DNA from: Metaphire vulgaris
Lineage: Eukaryota; Annelida; Clitellata; Crassiclitellata; Megascolecidae
Assembly: GCA_018105865.1 (NCBI GenBank)
Contig: CM030832.1
Coordinates: 14,674,919-14,738,918, forward strand
Direction of reading: 5' to 3'
DNA length: 64,000 bases
In this document: piece by piece, positions 13,374-62,716 of the stretch
Layout of the letters: every line of letters starts with the position of its first letter
How positions within the stretch are numbered: the first letter of the stretch is position 1
The notes under the pieces: generated by a model
Seen by the model: the letters and a program-made list of their open reading frames with translations, nothing else
Database searches by the model: none
Told to the model about the DNA's origin: nothing
Position numbers and translations under genes: made by a program

Positions 13374-14797
13374 TCACTCAAATACTGTTTCATTATTAAG
13401 AGGCGAATAATTTATATCAATCCCCTTATGCTTTCCTCTTCTACGTCTTCTGCAGTTTATCCTTCGCAGGCAAAATGTAGATCCAAATAAAAATGCAATT
13501 CCTCCAACAGCACCTAATACTACCAAAAAAACTTTTGCAGCCGAAGCATTCACTCGAAGAGTGTTCGCATGTCCAAACGGAAGCAGCATTTTGGCAGTAT
13601 CCTGCTGCCAGAGCCAAAGATCATTTAAAAATGCAATGCTTCCTCGACCATCGTAACCAATTCCTCCAAATATGTAAACTACTCCATTATGTTGCCAGGA
13701 TGCCATTCCTGCTCGTATCGAAGGTGTCGATCGAACAGAAAAATGTTCTGTGGTGACATTGTGCTTTGTAATTGGTTTACTTCTGCAAGTGGAAGAATTA
13801 TAGTTCAATACAAACAAATCAGAAAGCAGTGAATTACCATATGGTTCCATGCGAGTGCCAGCACTTTGTCCACCAAATATGAGCAAATTATCTTCAGATA
13901 ATAACAAGGTCATCGACTGATGTCTACTCAAAGGACATCGATCAACACTGTCCATGCATCCAAACAAGCAATTCACTTTAGCTCTGCTTTTCATCAACCA
14001 CATTCCAGTATTCATTGAGAACTCCCAGACTTCAAGCGTATTATTGAAGTGCAATGGTTTCATTGGCAAAACATTTATTTTGTGATGCTTATCAATCCAC
14101 ATTGCTGCTCCTCCCACAGTAGGTGGAAAGAGTTTCTGACTATTGTTTTGAGATGTCTTTTGTAAAAGAAAGCTGTCTAAGCAACTCCATTCAAGTGTTT
14201 TAAACGAGAAACTCCACATATCATCTAGCACTGTGTCTTGACCATGACCCCCGAAAACAATCATCTGGTCATCAAGACACCAGTTTGCCATGTCATATCG
14301 TGCCAAAGGATGTAATGACATTTGTACATTATGATGTTTGTGATGTGATGAAAGTGGCAACCACTTTGAAATTGGAATGTCATACAACCATGTGTCTGAA
14401 AGAGCAATTCCATTGTTGTCAATGCCTCCAAAAATTAAAAAAACCAAGTCCGTAACCCCACAAGCAGCTGCTTGCCTCCGTCTGCTTGGAAATCTTGTAT
14501 GGTTACTCATTGCCAAGGCTTTGTCACATTTTGGTTCAACTAATTTCCACTGGTGACTGGTAACATTAAACATCCAAAGATCTTGCAAAAGTCTTGGTGT
14601 TTCATTTGGGAGATCATCAAATCCAACACCTCCATACATCCAAAGATTACCGTTGAGGTCACACCATGCAGCCATTCCGGCTCTGCCACCAGGAGAAGAT
14701 CTCTCATTGGCACTTTCTTCTGAAGAAACTGTGGCATGCATGTTGCAGAGGACAGAATGCTGATTTCCAACATCTGAACCTTGTGTCCATTTGAAAA
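13374..14797 (-). CDS. Kelch-repeat single-pass membrane protein, 3' terminal exon (5' exons not found)
   Basis: The exon begins at an acceptor (TTTGATAG, AG at 14799-14798) in phase 1 and runs 473 codons to TGA at 13374-13376. The open frame upstream of 14797 lacks an ATG, so N-terminal exons are missing. Six kelch blades can be read with their signatures: NLWMYGGVG, LVFLIFGGI, QMIVFGGHG, a weak blade around WIDKHHKINVLPM, NLLIFGGQS and VVYIFGGIG, each followed by a D-LW or similar strand. Near the C-terminus a 22-residue hydrophobic segment (VFLVVLGAVGGIAFLFG) precedes a basic RRINCRRRRRGKHK stop-transfer and a short acidic tail ending NNETVFE. The topology is therefore kelch propeller outside and a short tail inside. 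N-glycosylation sequons such as NVT and NHT fit this. The function is unknown. Cytoplasmic kelch adaptors are excluded by the membrane segment. Confidence 0.85.
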
Positions 14798-14905
14798 CTA
14801 TCAAATTCAAACACACAAATGTGAATAATTCAAATTAATGCAATAATAAAATGTGACTATCAACAACTAGAATGTATATATAAACACCAAATGGATAAGT
14901 GTAGG

Positions 14906-15739: not shown

Positions 15740-16673
15740 CAGTGTTAGGAAAGATCACTTGTAAAATGATCTTGATCAAAGATCAAGATCACTAGAGAGA
15801 AATTGATCTAAGATCAAGATCAAAGACCACTAGAGTATAAATGATCTAAGATCAAGATCACTTTAAAAGTGATCTAAGATCAAAGATCATACAAATATAG
15901 TTATTATATCATGTATGACGTGTCACGTATGATAACGATACAAATGTCCACTGTACGATGCATGTAAACTTTTGTAATACTAAGTTACTAACACAACTGA
16001 AAACAGTTCATGACAATTTTAGTAACTAACTGTCAGTTCACAAGTCAGTGTTGAACACGGCAGTTCATTTTCAGCATGAGCAGACGCTCAAACGTTGCGT
16101 CAGACAACCTGTTTCTTCGCGGTGTAGCTATCAAACCTCCAATACTAAAAAGTCTTTCGACAGGTGCAGAAGATGGCAGGGTTGTGTTATATTTCACAAG
16201 TGCTGCCTTGACATGTGGGTATGCCAACAAGCTAGAAAGTTCCTTATTTGGGTTATTCAGGTAGTGCATGACCTCTATCTTGACTGCATTTTCACGACCA
16301 GTTGCAACTAAGCAAACCTCCCCACTGAGTCCCAGTGGCAGTGCCAGTACTAATGTCAGGGCCATACCAATAATCCTCATCATCTGCACCGGCTGCACTA
16401 ACATGATCATTGAGGTCCGAATGCTTGATTTGTCCGCCATTTTACTCAATACACATAGAAGTTCGTTGATTGATTGACTTAGTTGGGAGAATACGTATAA
16501 TTTGATCTTTGATCTTCTGTTGATAATAAAGATCAAGATCACCGAAAAAGTGATTTAAAATCAGAGTCAAAGATCACTAGTAAAAAGTGATCTAGATCAA
16601 AGATCAAAGATCATGAATTGTGATCTTAGATCGTGATCTTTGATCTTTTGATCTAAGATCACTCCTAACACTG
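15740..16673 (-). mobile_element. hAT transposon derivative (934 bp) with perfect 8-bp duplication CTGAAAAC
   Basis: Ends CAGTGTTAGGAAAGATC and GATCACTCCTAACACTG, both flanked by CTGAAAAC. Subterminal regions of about 150 bp at each side are crowded with GATCTAAGATCAAGATC-type words, likely transposase binding sites by analogy with other hAT elements. Minus-strand codons (about 16045-16310) encode the hAT C-terminal dimerisation region: YPHVKAALVKYNTTLPSSAP, ERLFSIGG and NRLSDATFERLLMLKMN. The catalytic core is absent, so this is an internally deleted, non-autonomous copy. An acidic stretch (ADDEDYWYGPD) in another minus frame suggests a frameshift inside the remnant. Confidence 0.92.
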
Positions 16674-45277: not shown

Positions 45278-48200
45278 TCAGACAACTCTGTGCTGCAGAG
45301 ACTCGTCGTAAGGTGGCGGCGGCGGGTTGCAGATGCAAGCAGTGATAGCAGAACGTGATGCGAACTCCGACTCCCTCCCTCTCCTTTCCCGTAGAGACGT
45401 CGTCGTCGTCGTCGTCGTCGTCTTCGGATTCAGTGAAATGCGTGGTACGACCGACGCACGTCGTGGTGCAGATTCCGTGGATAGGATATGACGTAATAAG
45501 AGCACCGCGATTGCGTGAGCGTGACGTCAGTGGAACGACGTCGGCGGCATCGACGGGGGAGGTGCAGACGGTTCGACGAAGGCGGTCCTGCCTCCTCCTC
45601 CTCCTCCTCCTCCTCCTCCTCCTCCTCCTCCTCCGCCGCCAGACGGGAAACACAGGAGACGGTGGGCGTAGGGGAGATGCCGGTCGACCGATTCTAAACA
45701 GGGAACGAGGGACGAATCGTATGGCAGCTGAGACACGGACAGCGGTCGGAACTGGTCGTCGTCGGCTGGTGGGCGGTGGCGGTTGACGGGCGTCGTGGTC
45801 GCCAGAGACCCCTCGTCCGTCGATCCGGTGGCACTCATTGAGCCGACGAATCTAACGTCCTCCTCGGTCGAGACGTTCCTCTGAGAAATAATTCGTTTCC
45901 TTTTCATTGACCCTGGCAGAAAGCAAATACGAATCTGCTGTCCACTCTCTATATATCAGGGATGCACAACCGGCGGCCCGCGGCCCAGATCCGGCCCGCC
46001 GACGTGTTCTCTGTCTGGCCATCGGAACAAATTAAAATAGCACAGAAAACTGGACCGAGAACAGTAATTCTGTTATAGAAATCATACATCAACTGATTGG
46101 GCTTATCAATTGGGCCAGTGGCGGTTCCAAGAACTCTTGGTGGGGGATGCAATGAATTTTTAGGAAGATCCCACCAATTGTCAAAGGAATTATACGTAAA
46201 CGGTTTAGAAGAATCTGTAGATTGAATTTATAAAATATAAACTATAATGTTCAGAATTGACAATGCACTAAAAGCCATTTTAGTCTGGCTGTACAAAGTC
46301 AGTGCAAACTGCAAAGTCGAGTCTTCTATTGCTGGAGCCTGGAAGCGAATTTGCCGATGACATTGTCTATGGATATGTCCTTGTCTTTGTGGATAGGCCT
46401 ATGCGTCAAGGCTAATCCGTTTAGACGATCTATCTTCAATTGAAGACGTATTTTGGTGGACCGGGGGGTGGGGGTGCATCCCCAGTCATCCCCAACGTGG
46501 AACCGCCCTGAATTGAAATACTACTATTCTATGTGTCAAACAGTTGTTCGTTGCAACATTTAGGCCCTATTAAAGTTAGTTTCGTTTTGAGTTGCAGATC
46601 TATGTAAAACATTGTAAATAATAGAACATCCATGTTTAGATTGTCGTCCTCGAATAATCTGAGAATGTTCAATTTGGCCCTTGGCCTAAAAGGGTTGTGC
46701 ACCCTGCTATAAACAGTATACTGTATATTGTCATAATATTGATAGTAGAAAACTCGATAGGCCTACTTCTGCATAAATAATTCGGATGGATCGATAAGGC
46801 ACGAGTTGAATGTTCTATAAGCAAACGTTTGTACATACAGTACATTTGCATAAGTTTGCACTGTATATATTATTAGTCTTCTCAGATCCGTTTTAAAGAC
46901 CCGGAGTAAATAAAATCTCGTAAATTTATATAGCGCTTTGGGAAATTGTACAGCAGTAGGCCAGTAGCTGCTTATTCTTATGCGCTTAATCTTTCTTGAA
47001 ATAGCTATAGACAAGGTGGTTTGTCGGTCGGGTAAAGGTCAGTGTATCGATGAGGCGGCGGGTCAGGCTGTTATTGCTATGGAGTAAATGCATTTTGGAA
47101 TAGGAAGGTTTCAAGTTTGATACCTAAAGGCTTGAGGAGATAGTGAGGGAATTAAAGGAAATGAGGATTCGGAGCTTGTTGTTTGAGTAAGCGATTAGAT
47201 AATTAGAGTCTAGACTAAAGAGGAATAGGCCTATAGCCTATAGGGAGGATGCAGATACATAACCAGTAGCAAATTTCTGTGTAATTATGTCTTGTAATAA
47301 ATTCATTCACTTCAATTTTTTGGTAATCAGGATTTTAATTAAGCGATACTCGTTACAATCTATCGCGTGCAAGAATGTCATATTCTGCAATACGTCGAGG
47401 AATTCGAAACCCGTTGTGATAATGGATCGGAATGAAACGGAAAGTTCGAGCTCGGTCGCATTTTACGGACTCAAGCGTCTAAACGATTCAGTATGATAAC
47501 GCTCCGATGCTATTGCTGCTTGTATTGCGCGTGGCGCAAGTGTCGTGTACCGGTCAGGACAGTGCACTAGTTCGGAGGTCACGGAGTTCGTAGAGACCGT
47601 CCGGGGAGTTCATCGTCGGTGGTCAGTCTGCCCATATTGCATGACGAGGGAAGTTATGACAGGCGTTAAATAAAACGCTGCGTTCGACCCCACACGGTCC
47701 GTCGACTTTCGATTAGAATGTCTTCTGTATTGTCAAATGGGAACAGCACGACGACGACGACGGCGGAGACCGAAACGATTCTATAGTCACACGTCTATTC
47801 TCCAATCGTGGCACTTCATGTTCGTGCTCGTCTAATTAAAACAAGCACCACACTCGGCGGAGAAAGTTTAAGTTTGCAAGTAACCGCTGGAATGCTGGAA
47901 TGCAAAGAGGTGCGGTTACCACGCCTCTTTGTTAGCATGGCGCTGATCGAGGGCGAAAGGACTTCGCGACCTCACTCTACAGTGTAATATTAGAACGGAG
48001 CCGATCGACATCTTGAGACTTATCCACCAGGAGCGTAGCGACGGGGGTATATCGGTATATATATATATATATATATAATATATATATATATACACTACCT
48101 TAAAATTAAAATTTTTCATGTGTTTTTTAAGATTTCCAAAGTTTTTAACGTAGTCCTAGTCCAGGTAGCCCTAGTTAACGTAATCCTATAGTCTGCTGTA

Positions 48201-48917
48201 TGCTGTATCGCTACTGTCTGTAACCGTCACAAAAGTATTATTAGACTTGTTGTAAGCGATATGTGGTGGTGGCTGATATATTAAATTCAGCGCCTGAGCC
48301 CTGATATGCGTTTAAGCATTCATAATATGGTAGCTTCGTTTCTACGACTACAAGTGATCATAGAGTCTACAATCAACCTACGAAACACGTGGCTTAACTA
48401 ATATTTTGATTCAGGTAACACGCGTGTCTGCGTTTATACCTGGGCAACCACACGAGAGGCATCCAGGAATGAAGCTGTTGAGACACCCTCGCCCAATGTT
48501 GCCGGCTTCGTTCATCTTTTGTTGTCGCTGACATCTCCCCCTCCTCCTCCTCTTCCGCCAGCAGCAACAGCAGACGACAGAGCAGAGGAGACAGCCGACG
48601 AAGACGATCGACAGAGGAACCAGAGTGGATGGAAGCAGAATCTCCAGCGGTGGAAGGTCGAACATCGCTCCATTCGTTCCAACTCCTCTGAACAGCGACA
48701 TTACTCGACAGTCCAATGAGTCCATTCATATAGGCCTACTGGCTCTTCAAAATGGCGTCGTGTTCAACAATCAACATAGAGACTAAGAAAGAATCTGAGA
48801 CGTTGTCTCAAAATTTGTTGTCTCAAAAATCGTTGTCTCAAAATCTGCACTTATTTCTCTTACAAATTAATGTTCGTGGTTCTGGTCAACATGATTAGTG
48901 CAAGCACTTATTATTAC

Positions 48918-49016
<99 letters not shown>

Positions 49017-49517
49017 CAGTAGTATTACATGGTTGTTAACGCACGTTAAGTCATTCACAAAGTGAAGAATCTTAAGTGCAGAGAAAGTCACGAATGAACA
49101 ATAATTTGTCCTATGTCGCTACGACAGTGGCTGTGGTAAGATTCGAACCTGCTACCACCGGTTTCGTGTCAAGAATCCTGCCACTAGGCTACTCCAAAAC
49201 GTCCCGTTAAAATTATGTAGGCTACCAAAAATCAACTTGCAGTACACGAATTCGAAATTCGACTGCTGGAGCCACTGCCACAAAACTACAAATTACGTAG
49301 GCCTATGTTCTTCAAATCTAAACTGGTGATCTGATCTGCAAATGAAATTAAAGTTTATCCAGTCTGTTAATTAATAAAGTCACAGTCCGACAATAATTGT
49401 CTGGCTGATTAGCGGTTTCACGATGCCTCCAGGCATTTATCATTTTCTCATTTTCTTATTATTTGAAGGCCCTACTCGTTTCTTCTGCACTCAAATCGCA
49501 AAATCTACTCGTTCGTC

Positions 49518-49588
<71 letters not shown>

Positions 49589-50889
49589 TAATAATAACAA
49601 ATCCTGCGTTCCTCTCTGTTCTCAGAGACAGAAGATGGCAGAGTGGATTACGCGCTGGAGCGGTAGGCTGTCGGAGCAGGTTCAAGGACTTCAAACCACG
49701 TTAGCGCTCCTAGTGGGTGGCTGTCACACAGGCAGCAATGCCTCCTATAGGCCACGATAAGTCAGTTCTTCAGCCGCCATTGAAATAATTATGTCGCTTG
49801 AATCGTTTCTTCGTCCCATTCCTTTACGACAGAATCTTCCAATGGCACCTCTTAAAGGACTTTCTTAGTCGCCAACAGCAGTAGTGATTTAGACCACTTC
49901 CTAGTTCCCTCATAAGACTGCTTAATAAATTTGATAATAATAAAATTAGCAATAACAGTTATATAATAATATAATAACTATCGATTATATAGGCATAATG
50001 CACTCGTATGACCTAGTACCAGTTCCTATATAGGCCTACCCTGATGAATCAATCGATAATAACCAAATCCATCCGCATAACATCAATCCAACACTGAAAT
50101 TGGTAACATTTCTGGGCCTAAAATCTGGAACTCTCTCCCTCCGGCTGTCAGATCTTCCAATTCATTGAGCATCTTTCAGACTTAAGAAGAAATATTCCTG
50201 ATCTCTGGAATGACCTGGATCTTTTGCGGATTGATTTTGAAGGCGATTGATACTTGGGATTAGAACTTTTTGCATAATTATTATTATCATTCCACAAGAA
50301 GAAATATTCCAAGGAAGAGATCGCAGTGGCAAGGCAACAGAATTTTTGCTATTTACAGAGGAAGCGATTTACTAACGGCAGAAGATGCGAACTGCTGTGG
50401 ACGTCCTGTTCAGAGGCGGATCTAGGGGGGAGAGTTAGTAGCCGTTTTTGTTCACATGTGGGACATTAGCTTATGTTTTGAATTTGAAACAGCAATGACT
50501 AGTTAAGATTTCTTCCCCTCTCCCAATCAAATTCCTAGCTACGCCGCTGATGATAATGTAGCTGATGATAATGATGATGGTGATTACGATGGCGATTATG
50601 ATGAGTGATGACGACGCCTAACATACCGTGTCACGATGATGTCATCTGCCTCCTGACACCGAAATCGGTTCCAGTCTTGGTGGTAGCGGCAGCACAGGAG
50701 TGTGTCCTGGATATGTCGACAGCAGCAGTATTCCACTGTCGGCAAGGTAGTTGGTGACGGAGCACAGGTGAGTAAACTCCGTGTATCGTTTTGCCAGACA
50801 TTCTCCGCTGCTTCTGAACGACTCCAAGCGACCTGCCATCGCTGCTTTGCGTCGTCAAAAGAAGACAAGATGAGACAAACGCACAACAT
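45278..50889 (-). CDS. Candidate Shisa-like cysteine-rich single-pass membrane protein (3 exons, tail uncertain)
   Basis: Three minus-strand segments join in phase: 50627-50889 (donor CACG|GTATGT), 48440-48687 (acceptor CTGTTCAG, donor CCCAG|GTATAA) and a 3' segment from 45912 (acceptor GCTTTCTGCCAG). The first holds an ATG at 50889 with a short hydrophobic start, then VWQNDTRSLLTCAPSP and EYCCCRHIQDTLLCCRYHQD followed by WNRFRC. The order C-P ... EYCC ... CC ... C resembles the Shisa domain. The second holds LVPLSIVFVGCLLCSVVCCC and WRKRRRRG, a membrane span with a cysteine and arginine border. The third is polar, enters a (GGA)n Gly run and stops at TGA 45527. The same frame, after that stop, continues to PPPPPYDESLQHRVV at 45278, a PPxY tail typical of Shisa. 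Either an indel, an unrecognised intron or an early stop separates them. N-terminal exons may be missing. Without a database match this remains a hypothesis. Confidence 0.45.
45403..45423. repeat. (CGT)n microsatellite
   Basis: GTCGTC units in GC-rich DNA within the 3' segment of the candidate Shisa-like gene. Confidence 0.9.
45592..45633. repeat. (CTC)n microsatellite
   Basis: Fourteen or so CTC units, read as poly-Gly, poly-Arg or poly-Glu on the minus strand. Length change here would shift the reading frame of the overlapping candidate exon. Confidence 0.9.
45957..46706. mobile_element. hAT-like element (750 bp) with nested MITE
   Basis: Ends CAGGGATGCACAACC and GGTTGTGCACCCTG; flanks CTATATAT and CTATAAAC agree at 6 of 8. 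It is related to 41846-43185 by its ends. It contains the nested element 46116-46510. It lies inside the second intron of the candidate Shisa-like gene. Confidence 0.7.
46116..46510. mobile_element. MITE with CAGTGGCGGTTCC ends, nested
   Basis: Ends CAGTGGCGGTTCCAAGAAC and CCAACGTGGAACCGCCCTG; flanks AATTGGGC and AATTGAAA. Same family as 53385-54066 and as the nests inside 17486-18375 and 28123-28982. Confidence 0.7.
46706..48439. other. Intron-like region without a recognised gene
   Basis: Contains a LINE-like word TTTATATAGCGCTTTGGG at about 46925, a (TA)n tract at 48057-48092, a GC-richer stretch 47500-47800, and at 47507 a short frame MLLLLVLRVAQVSC that looks like a signal peptide but leads nowhere I can follow. 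Confidence 0.5.
48907..49017. repeat. (ATT)n followed by (TAG)n microsatellite
   Basis: ATT units to about 48962 pass directly into TAG units to about 49017. The TAG part is the tail of the SINE on the minus strand. Confidence 0.95.
48975..49197 (-). mobile_element. tRNA-derived SINE with (CTA)n tail
   Basis: Minus strand reads TAGCCTAGTGGCAGGATTC (A-box region), GGTAGCAGGTTCGAATC (B-box), then a unique body and a CTA trinucleotide tail. It lies in the first intron of the candidate Shisa-like gene. Confidence 0.7.
49518..49597. repeat. (AAT)n microsatellite
   Basis: AAT array just upstream of a SINE S1 copy. Confidence 0.95.
49622..49770 (+). mobile_element. tRNA-derived SINE S1
   Basis: GATGGCAGAGTGGATTACG, then GCGCTGGAGCGGTAGGCTG, GGAGCAGGTTCAAGG and TGTCACACAGGCAGCAATG. 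A small internal duplication (TTCAAGGACTTCAA) disturbs the B-box. Confidence 0.75.
50070..50290 (+). mobile_element. LINE 3' end with (ATT)n tail
   Basis: IWNSLPPAV-like coding (ATCTGGAACTCTCTCCC), then CTGATCTCTGGAATGACC and GATCTTTTGCGGATTG and an ATTATT tail. Paralogue of 43440-43610. Confidence 0.7.
50411..50549. mobile_element. Short TIR element, CAGAGGCGGATCTAGG ends
   Basis: Left CAGAGGCGGATCTAGG, right CCTAGCTACGCCGCTG. Flanks do not match, so one end may be recombined. Confidence 0.5.
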
Positions 50890-52460: not shown

Positions 52461-53384
52461 CAATACACAATGTACAATAACAACAGTTAATGACCAACCT
52501 GATTCACGACAGGCGTTTATCTGTTCTTCGTTGCAAGTGGCTTCTACAATTGAAGAACAAGCGAATCCACTTTATCCTCAAAATTATCAGAATCATGGAA
52601 TAAAATAATTTAAGTAAGATCTTCTGTAAAATGTCCTTTAGTCAAACGTTAGTCAGGTCTCAGCGCCTAAATTACACGTGGGCATAGAGAACCTCAATAA
52701 GTATGGTGCCCTTTGCTGCCGTCAGCAAAAGATTTAATTGCCCAAAAATTAATTTTGTTTGCAACAATTTAAACCAGAGTGCATTTCATAGAAATGGTCT
52801 TTTAAAACTCGAAATGCAGTATTGGCAAAATGCATGCGGCTGCTTTGGAAAGCGTCATTGCGGGCTCCAATGACCTCAATTAGTCTCGAGAAACGGGAGA
52901 CGAAGAAACTTCAAACTCGGCCTTCGTGAACCGTTCGGTATAACCGATGGGACTGGCGCTTATGAACAAATGGCATTATGGCATGTGAGCTTCCGCAGTT
53001 GTACACGAAAGACAGTCATTGAGCTGTCCTATACCGTTATCGTATCAATCAACTGAAACTGCGAATAACCTATAGAAAATGTTCATTGATAATAACAGAA
53101 CAAAGTTCGCGCTTGATAAATTCACGCGCGTAGTCACGAAAACGAATTTTGTCGCTGAATATCAATGAAATATCGTCGCTGAATATCAATGAAATAACTG
53201 ATATATGACGTCATTATTACGTTGCACTGAGCACAGATAAATCGTCGTTTAAGCTATAAAGACAATTAGATATAAACCCCCATAAGACAGTTTAGGTTTA
53301 AGGTCCTACATATTATTATGAATCTCCTAAGAGCGGTCTTTCAGATGCCTTACTATGCGTGCGCTCTTACGACTTACTCTTCGC
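52461..53384. other. No gene or repeat recognised
   Basis: Unique-looking sequence without a long open frame. A 25-bp direct repeat (GTCGCTGAATATCAATGAAAT) occurs twice at about 53151 and 53174. Confidence 0.5.
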
Positions 53385-54066: not shown

Positions 54067-56110
54067 CTCTTCGTGAGCGGCATTTTCGCTATATTTGCGA
54101 TAATCTTACGCGTTAAACATTTCTCATGAGCTTACAACAAATGACCCAACGAACAAGACAACAACAATTCAGATTATACCACTGCCAAGCAGAGGGCGAT
54201 TTGTAGGGGGACAATTTTTCTCTCCACTGTCCAACTGCACCCTTCCTTCCCTCCCCACTGAGGTGGCTACTGACATCCTAGCCAGGGAAGTCAATCTTTC
54301 CAATCGCTGTGACAGGAAAATGCATTCTCCGTCGGCAGAGGGAGAAACTTTTTCGGTGCTCCGCGCAGAGCATAAATAACAAAATGAAACTCTGATGTTC
54401 GGTGGTAACTGAGGGAGAGACAATCATCTTAACCTAAAAATTATCCGAGTTGCTGATTAAACCATTAAATTTATACATCGTCATGGCCAGACATTGAAAG
54501 TGACAGGTCATCATTATTTGGTGACAGAGCAATAATTTGCCTAGCAGAACTGTGCGAAGTAGGTCCGCCGCAAGACTTGGATCAGTTCCGACAGTACAAG
54601 AACAATGTGAGAGTAATCGGAAATGTGCTTGCTTCAGTACTCAGTGGAAATAAAATTCGATGTGTTCATACGCGTTCATCTCTTTCATGAAGTCTAATAG
54701 GCCACCACCAACACTGTTCAGTGTTCAATCCTGCCTGTGCTAAAAATGGGTATGCGACGGGCGACATGCTGCCTCAGATGCACCAACTGGCCAAAAACTG
54801 ACAAGACATCTGTGTCAATTCCTGCCATGGCAACTCTGTATTAATGTCAAATGTTCGTTGCATGCTTGAATTTAACTGCAGATTTCCAATTGTTGCAACT
54901 TGCAGACGTGCTATTACATTTATGGTTTAAATAAAATGAATGGTAGGCCCCTACGTGACAATTTATAGAAATAGCCTAATATTGAAAATCAGAGCAAAGT
55001 ACGAATGCGCATTAAACCATGCATTTTTCATGCCCTTGCCCACTGCTCGCCATGTCCCCCTCCCACCACTGCTCCAGGTCACAAATCGCACCATGCATCC
55101 AAGTATCGTCTGAATCAGTTACTGAGTTTAACTGAGAATGGTGGAATTTTAATTGCTCAAATGACGCTCTGATGCCATCAATCTTGGCATTTAATTAACT
55201 CATTTAATAAGCGAATGTCATCAATTTTACGTCAAGAAATCAAAAAAATCGACCGAATAGACATTCATGGTAGCACACTTGCGAACAGACACACAGACGG
55301 ACGGACGGACGGACGGAGAGATACAGAGACAGAGAAATGGCAGACTGTTGGTCGTGTAAACAAAGGACTTTCGAGGGTGGATTGAGCTCAGAGCTAGGTC
55401 GAGTTGCAAATAAAATAAACTCCAGAGTGACTTGAGGCGAGTGCGTTCAAATTTAGATTGCGATCAAATTTAGCTGCGACTGAAGTCAAACCTTATTCGT
55501 CTCATGGAGGTCTTTAGGAGGAACTGCGAGACGAGATGGTATATAAGCACAAAACAGTAGACAAGAACTAACAGAGGAAGAATTATTACATTGTCATACA
55601 AGTATACAGCATCACAGTCAGCCCCGAAGCCACTTTAGCTGCGACCTAAACGGAAAGAAATTGGGGCAGTTGTAGCCTTTCCTTTCCCACTGCATGGTTC
55701 TAATCTACAAAGTCCTTATATACAGCAAACACAACCGCGTTTTAATACAGTCCGAATGCAAACGAAAATACAGTTTAAGAGTTAAGTTGGCTGAAAGTGG
55801 CAAAGCGCCACAGAGAAACTACGACCTACAAAGGGTGATTGCCCACACCAATCTCCGTCCAGCTTTCCAGATTATATAATATATTGTCAAAGGTACTAAT
55901 AACTGCAAGTCTGCGATATTTGAAATGATGGCTGGATTGCCTTAGCGGGACATCGTTGTCAATCTTGATTTCGAATGGTTGCAAGGCGCTTTTAATATTT
56001 TATAAAGAGGATCTAGAACTCACATCGCGTCAATAATTATCCTGAAATGAATGAGATTCTGGGAATGGATGTCACGCCCTCCACCGCCATACCGCATTCA
56101 GGAAACTGTC
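54067..56110. other. No gene recognised
   Basis: Open frames here are short and without recognisable domains. A small GGAC tetranucleotide run lies at about 55298-55316. Confidence 0.5.
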
Positions 56111-62360: not shown

Positions 62361-62716
62361 TTGCGCAACTTTATTTAAGCCATACATTTTAACGCGACGA
62401 ACAAAAATGTCGTGGTACAGCGTATCAAATGGCAGAGAGGTCCAGTTGCGTGATTTTAACGACCATAGCGATCCATCAACAATATTATTGTAAATACGCA
62501 GAGCTGTTTTGGCTTCCGGTGGCGATCTTTAGGCATTGTTTGACGTGAATTCAAGTTGATTATTGACCATTCCAGCAGCTTTGACAAGATAGGAAGATTA
62601 GAGACTGGATTAGTATTATCTTGATTGCGACTTGGAAGCGAGGTGCGGGTATACGACCGCATGCGAGCATCTTTGGAAATTCACCCTTCTCAAAGACGTC
62701 GACAAAGAGTCGTGAG

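Follow-up and report, generated by a model that had tools for sequence, protein, structure and literature searches.

On its minus strand, the window studied here (by which we mean the whole 64,000-nucleotide stretch of eukaryotic genomic DNA, C1:14674919-14738918, from a Metaphire vulgaris assembly of 728 Mb in 246 contigs) carries what is, judged from its homologues and its exon phases, a genuine protein-coding gene. The gene appears to comprise at least four exons, at C1:14720196-14727461, plus an unlocated signal-peptide exon, and its predicted product is a type I membrane protein of about 380 residues. A single-pass protein with a cysteine-rich ectodomain and a tail carrying a PPxY motif is supported by homologues, by paralogues and by purifying selection. 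Taken as a whole, the explanation that we prefer, of a gene for a putative sorting adaptor whose reading-frame breaks would be errors of the assembly, receives from us a probability of roughly 0.6.

An initial annotation of this DNA had proposed a spliced gene of three segments, and this proposal was borne out by database searches. The joined protein, taken up to a TGA that interrupts it, was compared with 5.8 billion proteins and returned two entries, P0001 (E 1.1e-70) and P0002 (E 8.8e-34); of the 1772 candidates, no other gave E 10 or better. A profile search found only the same two entries again among the 7994 candidates sharing most words; the protein set draws on sources including ncbi, uniref and nr, and because the search depends on five-residue words held in common, distant relatives can escape it. 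P0001 (382 amino acids) and P0002 (359 amino acids) are full-length relatives with unbroken frames, which match the joined protein and are 63% and 51% identical over the whole length to the window protein when the latter is read through its frame changes. Both are unnamed, predicted entries with the source code “lgn”, which we read as denoting a public set of assembled reads, and since contigs of their length (1545 and 1790 bases) could not accommodate introns of the size seen here, they probably represent spliced transcripts.

When the two proteins are aligned to the window with tblastn, the matches fall on the claimed exons. A paralogue on contig C5 (around 7961.1-7968.5 kb) likewise has four exons, here termed A to D, with uninterrupted frames and with codons split at the A/B, B/C and C/D junctions as in the window. 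The joined model could still be thought a chance assembly of noise reading frames, as each separate frame is short and low-complexity sequence occurs close by, yet homologues at E 1e-70 and 9e-34 and a paralogue of identical exon phases already refute this idea, to which we grant virtually no chance.

Exon structure of the gene

The gene model was corrected using tblastn of P0001 and P0002 against the window together with direct reading of the sequence (Table 1). The splice sites at 50627, 48687/48440 and 45912 given in the initial annotation are present, with matching phases at both junctions, and so are the EYCC...CC...FRC segment, the single hydrophobic span with CCCC and RRRR after it, and the polar tail. 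All three of its exons are real, although a fourth that contributes two more cysteines had been overlooked; the C5 paralogue has an equivalent exon of equal phase. The beginning of the gene had also been misplaced. The ATG at 50889 lies upstream of exon B, which according to the relatives and the C5 paralogue starts at a splice acceptor (..GCAAAGCAG followed by CG, at 50841), and the “C-P” element (LTCAPSP) was an artefact of reading the early part of this exon in the wrong frame, where the conserved frame, seen by tblastn and in the sequence, is AMAGRLESFRSSGECLAKRYTEFTHLCSVTNYL.

The N-termini of P0001 and P0002 look signal-peptide-like by eye, and candidate signal-peptide exons are present at three related places in the genome (L015, L020 and L021), the starts of those at L020 and L021 looking alike. 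In the window, candidates with donors near 62567 and 56452 were weak and are not believed, none being left at a stricter setting; nothing convincing was found in the 8.6 kb upstream of the C5 gene either. Exon C encodes a single hydrophobic segment, and the AlphaFold model of P0001 has one long helix at residues 132-169 with a block predicted local distance difference test (pLDDT) score of 66-86, while the rest of the model is poor. With its mean pLDDT of 45 the model was judged unfit for a fold search, and a search of solved structures with the family alignment yielded 2 weak matches, the best at E 0.044, which are not meaningful. Upstream of the gene, a non-coding block matches sequence lying ahead of the C5 paralogue at 66% over 204 bases (E 4e-6), and at a guess it might be a promoter or 5′ untranslated region.

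Table 1. Features of the minus-strand gene, in window positions
Feature	Position	Strand	Description
Upstream non-coding block	55285..55488	-	About 2.7 kb upstream of exon A
Exon A	52499..52543	-	45 nt, EATCNEEQINACRES; first two ectodomain cysteines; from tblastn with P0001/P0002 and sequence
Exon A borders		-	..TTCAATTGTAG on one side, GTTGGT on the other
Exon B	50627..50841	-	215 nt; eight-cysteine ectodomain core; exon 1 of the initial annotation with its 5′ end corrected
First frame change	50742..50747	-	In exon B, between ..SVTNYL and PTVEYCCC..; C5 paralogue unbroken here
Exon C	48440..48687	-	248 nt; DLPPLEILLPSTLVPL, membrane span, CCCCWRKRRRR; identical to exon 2 of the initial annotation
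Exon D	45278..45912	-	635 nt; cytoplasmic tail and stop; exon 3 of the initial annotation
PSAP motif (within EPSAPP)	45560..45571	-	Kind bound by TSG101/ESCRT-I; conserved in P0001, P0002 and C5
Second frame change	45553..45562	-	After EPSAPP; relative to P0001/P0002
TGA in frame of initial annotation	45527..45529	-	Between second and third frame changes
Third frame change	45322..45328	-	Before PPPPY
C-terminus PPPPPYDESLQHRVV and stop	45278..45325	-	PPxY, kind bound by NEDD4-type WW domains

Paralogues and tail motifs

Searched against the genome, two protein queries return an identical set of 14 related places, one of which (L022, C1:6503736) is a partial duplicate of another (L016), with 90-95% identity over long shared pieces. 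The window gene is one of 13 copies found with a full ectodomain, and no named protein was found for the family in the searches made. The 13 ectodomains share the pattern G.C....Y....H.C.V..Y.P....CCC...CC.YHQ.W..FRC....D, in which eight cysteines are invariant (13/13); the alignment rows of the window copy, L020 and L021 were joined up from in-frame segments. Among the six closest pairs the ratio of nonsynonymous to synonymous differences (pN/pS) is 0.07-0.31, indicating purifying selection between paralogues. By loose hydrophobicity criteria, exon B is followed by a candidate membrane-span exon at 13 of the 14 places, none being seen at L021, and a stretch like exon A is recognised at five (window, C5, L013, L014 and L021). 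It seems that annotation has missed a conserved multigene family of receptor-like adaptors, represented in protein searches by two unnamed entries only.

Twelve of the 13 copies form six pairs located on different large contigs (C1/C5 twice, C22/C27, C8/C14, C30/C37 and C12/C16), five of them with fork support from 80/82 to 100/97, while the window and C5 copies stand together in an open fork. Loci with true Shisa domains on C16/C12 and C27/C22 are also alike by eye, and HSP70 matches on C7/C19 run in parallel. These paired copies, paired Shisa-domain loci and parallel HSP70 matches together suggest an old large-scale or whole-genome duplication.

The tails of the window protein, the C5 paralogue, P0001 and P0002 all carry EPSAP and, at the C-terminus, a PPxY, then an acidic residue and, further on, HRVV. 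For P0001, P0002 and C5, 20,000 residue shuffles per tail produced both a PSAP and, within the final 25 residues, a PPxY in a fraction of 0.00015-0.0003, although such a shuffle is a rough null only. Counted across frames, P[ST]AP occurs at 9 of the 14 places (window, C5, L012, L013, L014, L015, L016, L018 and L022) and PPxY at six (window, C5, L013, L014, L015 and L018), the two motifs standing in different frames in L013, L015 and L018; a PPPLY that ends an unrelated-looking frame of L017 was left out of the PPxY count.

The passages cited describe PPxY motifs as ligands of the WW domains found in NEDD4-type ligases, CYYR1 and WWP1 being one such pair, and report that WBP1L acts as an adaptor for ligases of this type (PMC11399591); ARRDC1 binds TSG101 through its PSAP (PMC3439951). 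By analogy with these proteins, the combination of a conserved cysteine-rich ectodomain with a PSAP/PPxY tail leads us to infer that this small cell-surface protein probably helps to sort other membrane proteins. The disulphide-rich ectodomain would bind a partner membrane protein, the PPxY would recruit a NEDD4-type ubiquitin ligase and the PSAP would recruit TSG101 of the endosomal sorting complex required for transport I (ESCRT-I), upon which the partner may be ubiquitinated and then sorted to endosomes and lysosomes or into vesicles. If the motifs act in this way, the family would connect an ectodomain at the cell surface, in compact form, with both ubiquitination and ESCRT sorting.

Frame changes and their possible causes

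Relative to P0001, P0002 and the C5 paralogue, the window copy has three frame changes, one within exon B and two within exon D whose lengths cancel, so the joined product once thought to reach 45278 uninterrupted runs into a TGA in its own frame (Table 1). Base-level assembly errors are the most likely cause and are moderately favoured, because two HSC70 copies of the same assembly show similar breaks; recent lesions are less likely. The HSC70 copies (L026, C25:2143692-2147414; L027, C25:2252612-2256232) are 96% identical, lie about 109 kb apart and contain short out-of-frame stretches at differing places within otherwise well conserved exons. Within the family itself, frame differences lie between the tail motifs in L013 and L018, where an intron is possible, and inside the exon B sequences of L020 and L021. 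The relative rates speak against an old pseudogene, the window copy having changed no faster than the unbroken C5 paralogue (14 window-unique against 22 C5-unique changes over 304 columns). An apparent acceleration in a three-sequence count, with 39 window-unique against 14 P0001-unique changes, vanished once C5 was added.

Several observations weigh against the explanation that we prefer. If the three frame changes are real, they would make the window copy a pseudogene. Among the 12 HSC70 loci of the control, some of which overlap, breaks are found in L026 and L027 only, L029 being set aside as a poor alignment (three stops, 41% identity), and the two are near-identical copies that could themselves be damaged. 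The same window contains a kelch-repeat open reading frame (13374-14816, minus strand; Pfam PF24681, E 7.9e-34) that is unbroken over 480 codons. As for the rest of the gene, the 11.4 kb upstream of it in the window gave no convincing candidate for the signal-peptide exon, and among the 14 places P[ST]AP is unseen at five and PPxY at eight, partly since tails were not recovered.

A rival idea is that the window locus is a recently inactivated paralogue, with the C5 gene as the working copy. Such a young pseudogene would fit the finding that about 1.1 kb of coding sequence changes frame three times here and not at all in C5, the intact kelch frame in the window and the 10 of 12 HSC70 loci without a comparable break (L029 was not fully examined), but it sits poorly with the retention of the splice sites and of all cysteines, and with a count of unique changes that is lower in the window copy than in C5. 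The split-frame motifs and domain halves in L013, L018, L020 and L021, together with the two HSC70 copies, also point to the assembly, and overall we consider the young pseudogene unlikely.

A separate case is the pair L020 (C16:826.3-826.6 kb) and L021 (C12:11210.9-11211.2 kb), whose frames stand in one and the same +1 relation across an exon B linker rich in CAA and CAG. When the flanks are compared in their own frames, the 5′ side has 16 synonymous and 2 nonsynonymous differences and the 3′ side 15 and 7, indicating strong purifying selection on both, and the linkers differ in length solely by nine-base gaps. A mini-intron was considered and rejected, as the common early GT is a poor donor and the in-phase acceptor in L020 would create a stop, judged by eye. 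Perhaps an assembly error occurred twice. The most far-reaching alternative would see here a new animal family of membrane sorting adaptors, unrelated to Shisa by descent and wired through PSAP to ESCRT-I and through PPxY to NEDD4-type ligases, with certain members reaching completion only by +1 ribosomal frameshifting; this is in our view a long shot, and if it were true, such genes would yield, without the shift, a truncated ectodomain lacking the membrane span.

Elsewhere in the window, positions 16045-16542 on the minus strand show a weak match to the C-terminal dimerisation region of hAT transposases (E 1.8e-4), the octamer TAGGCCTA occurs in 17 copies compared with 0.8 expected from base composition, and long, near-perfect di- and trinucleotide repeats are abundant. 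Scans of the window for tRNAs and Rfam families gave no match, and no second copy of the kelch frame was found in the genome, where 3 candidates were scored.

Relation to Shisa and other known systems

The initial annotation had suggested a Shisa-like protein, and this label survives as a good description of the layout, while membership in the Shisa family is not supported by sequence. The literature cited describes Shisa-like/STMC6 proteins as having a single span, PY motifs and six cysteines arranged as C*C*CC*CC, and a four-aromatic motif in the membrane span is mentioned as well (PMC5578492). The present family has C*C*CC*CC within its eight invariant cysteines, a single span and a proline-rich PPxY tail. 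The Pfam Shisa profile (PF13908), the check proposed with that annotation, gave at E≤10 no match for the joined protein, P0001, P0002, a P0001 ectodomain piece or two paralogue ectodomains, with the limit that HMMER filters drop most weak matches to it. With a Shisa-4 profile it was chiefly the membrane span that aligned, at 4.0 bits for the window protein and P0002 and with a negative score for P0001. The PF13908 profile does work in this genome, because a whole-genome search yielded 16 matches at E≤1, none of them at the 14 places of the family; the weakest three have E 0.01-0.18, and two (C192 and C2) give identical sequence. The 16 places hold many domains of the type C.GY.DK.G.WNNGF.CPKWG..YCCG....CC, an expanded set of true Shisa-like domains. 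Shisa proteins have been reported from bilaterians, and the cited text describes an expansion of the ShisaL2 group in cephalochordates and hemichordates (PMC7653359); our literature search on Shisa-like expansions returned nothing on the subject.

Profile-profile comparison by hhalign was equally negative and stayed inside the range of shuffled controls. Against vertebrate Shisa-4, represented by 100 of 120 ectodomains (20 did not fit the cysteine pattern), the score was 10.2 (probability 0.3%), a value surpassed by at least 10 of the 40 controls made by shuffling columns, the top one reaching 25.9. Nine Shisa domains of the same genome gave a score of 14.6 (probability 1.9%), and a mixed profile of own and vertebrate domains gave 14.2; higher scores came from 6 of the 60 shuffled controls and from at least 12 of the 60 in which the cysteines were kept fixed. 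As positive controls, the genome's own Shisa domains against Shisa-4 reached 98%, and comparisons within the family reached 100%. A true but highly diverged member of Shisa/STMC6, related by common descent beyond the reach of profiles, is nonetheless a real possibility, if one that we would rate below even odds. This concerns the origin of the family and is compatible with the gene, adaptor role and assembly errors that we propose. It would explain the identical order of parts, the six-cysteine order described in the cited source for Shisa-like proteins (PMC5578492), the PPxY tail and the cysteines that fall in register in the best alignment with the genome's own Shisa domains. Against it stand the missing profile match at E up to 10, the hhalign probabilities of 0.3-1.9%, a different spacing, two extra N-terminal cysteines, CCC instead of CCG and the lack of F.CP. 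A Shisa-like layout, in a genome with many true Shisa domains besides, makes the family a test of whether the C*C*CC*CC adaptor plan reflects shared origin or convergence.

Among known systems, the Shisa and Shisa-like proteins (PF13908; Shisa4, FAM159/ShisaL2, CKAMP44) resemble the window protein in being type I with a single span, in the C*C*CC*CC order of the cysteines before the span, in having a cysteine-rich segment at the membrane, and in the PPxY of the tail. The window family differs in the absence of a PF13908 match, in two extra N-terminal cysteines encoded by a separate exon and in a tail PSAP, and its consensus CCC-(n)-CCxYHQxWxxFRC departs from the CPKWG..YCCG....CC of the genome's Shisa domains. 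CYYR1 and WBP1/WBP1L/VOPP1, which are STMC6 proteins and adaptors of NEDD4-type ligases, share a cysteine-rich lumenal domain, one span and a PPxY tail, although a Pfam scan, the one comparison made, found no sequence relation between them and the window family. CYYR1 differs in having three PPxY motifs, and no PSAP is mentioned for it in the account cited (PMC11399591). The mode of action of the window protein is likely, by analogy, to be of the kind represented by CYYR1, WBP1, WBP1L and VOPP1. ARRDC1 is an arrestin-domain protein without a membrane span. It resembles the window protein in having a PSAP, here a C-terminal one that binds TSG101, and according to the cited passages ARRDC1 is ubiquitylated by NEDD4-type ligases (PMC3439951). 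The analogy is one of tail motifs only.

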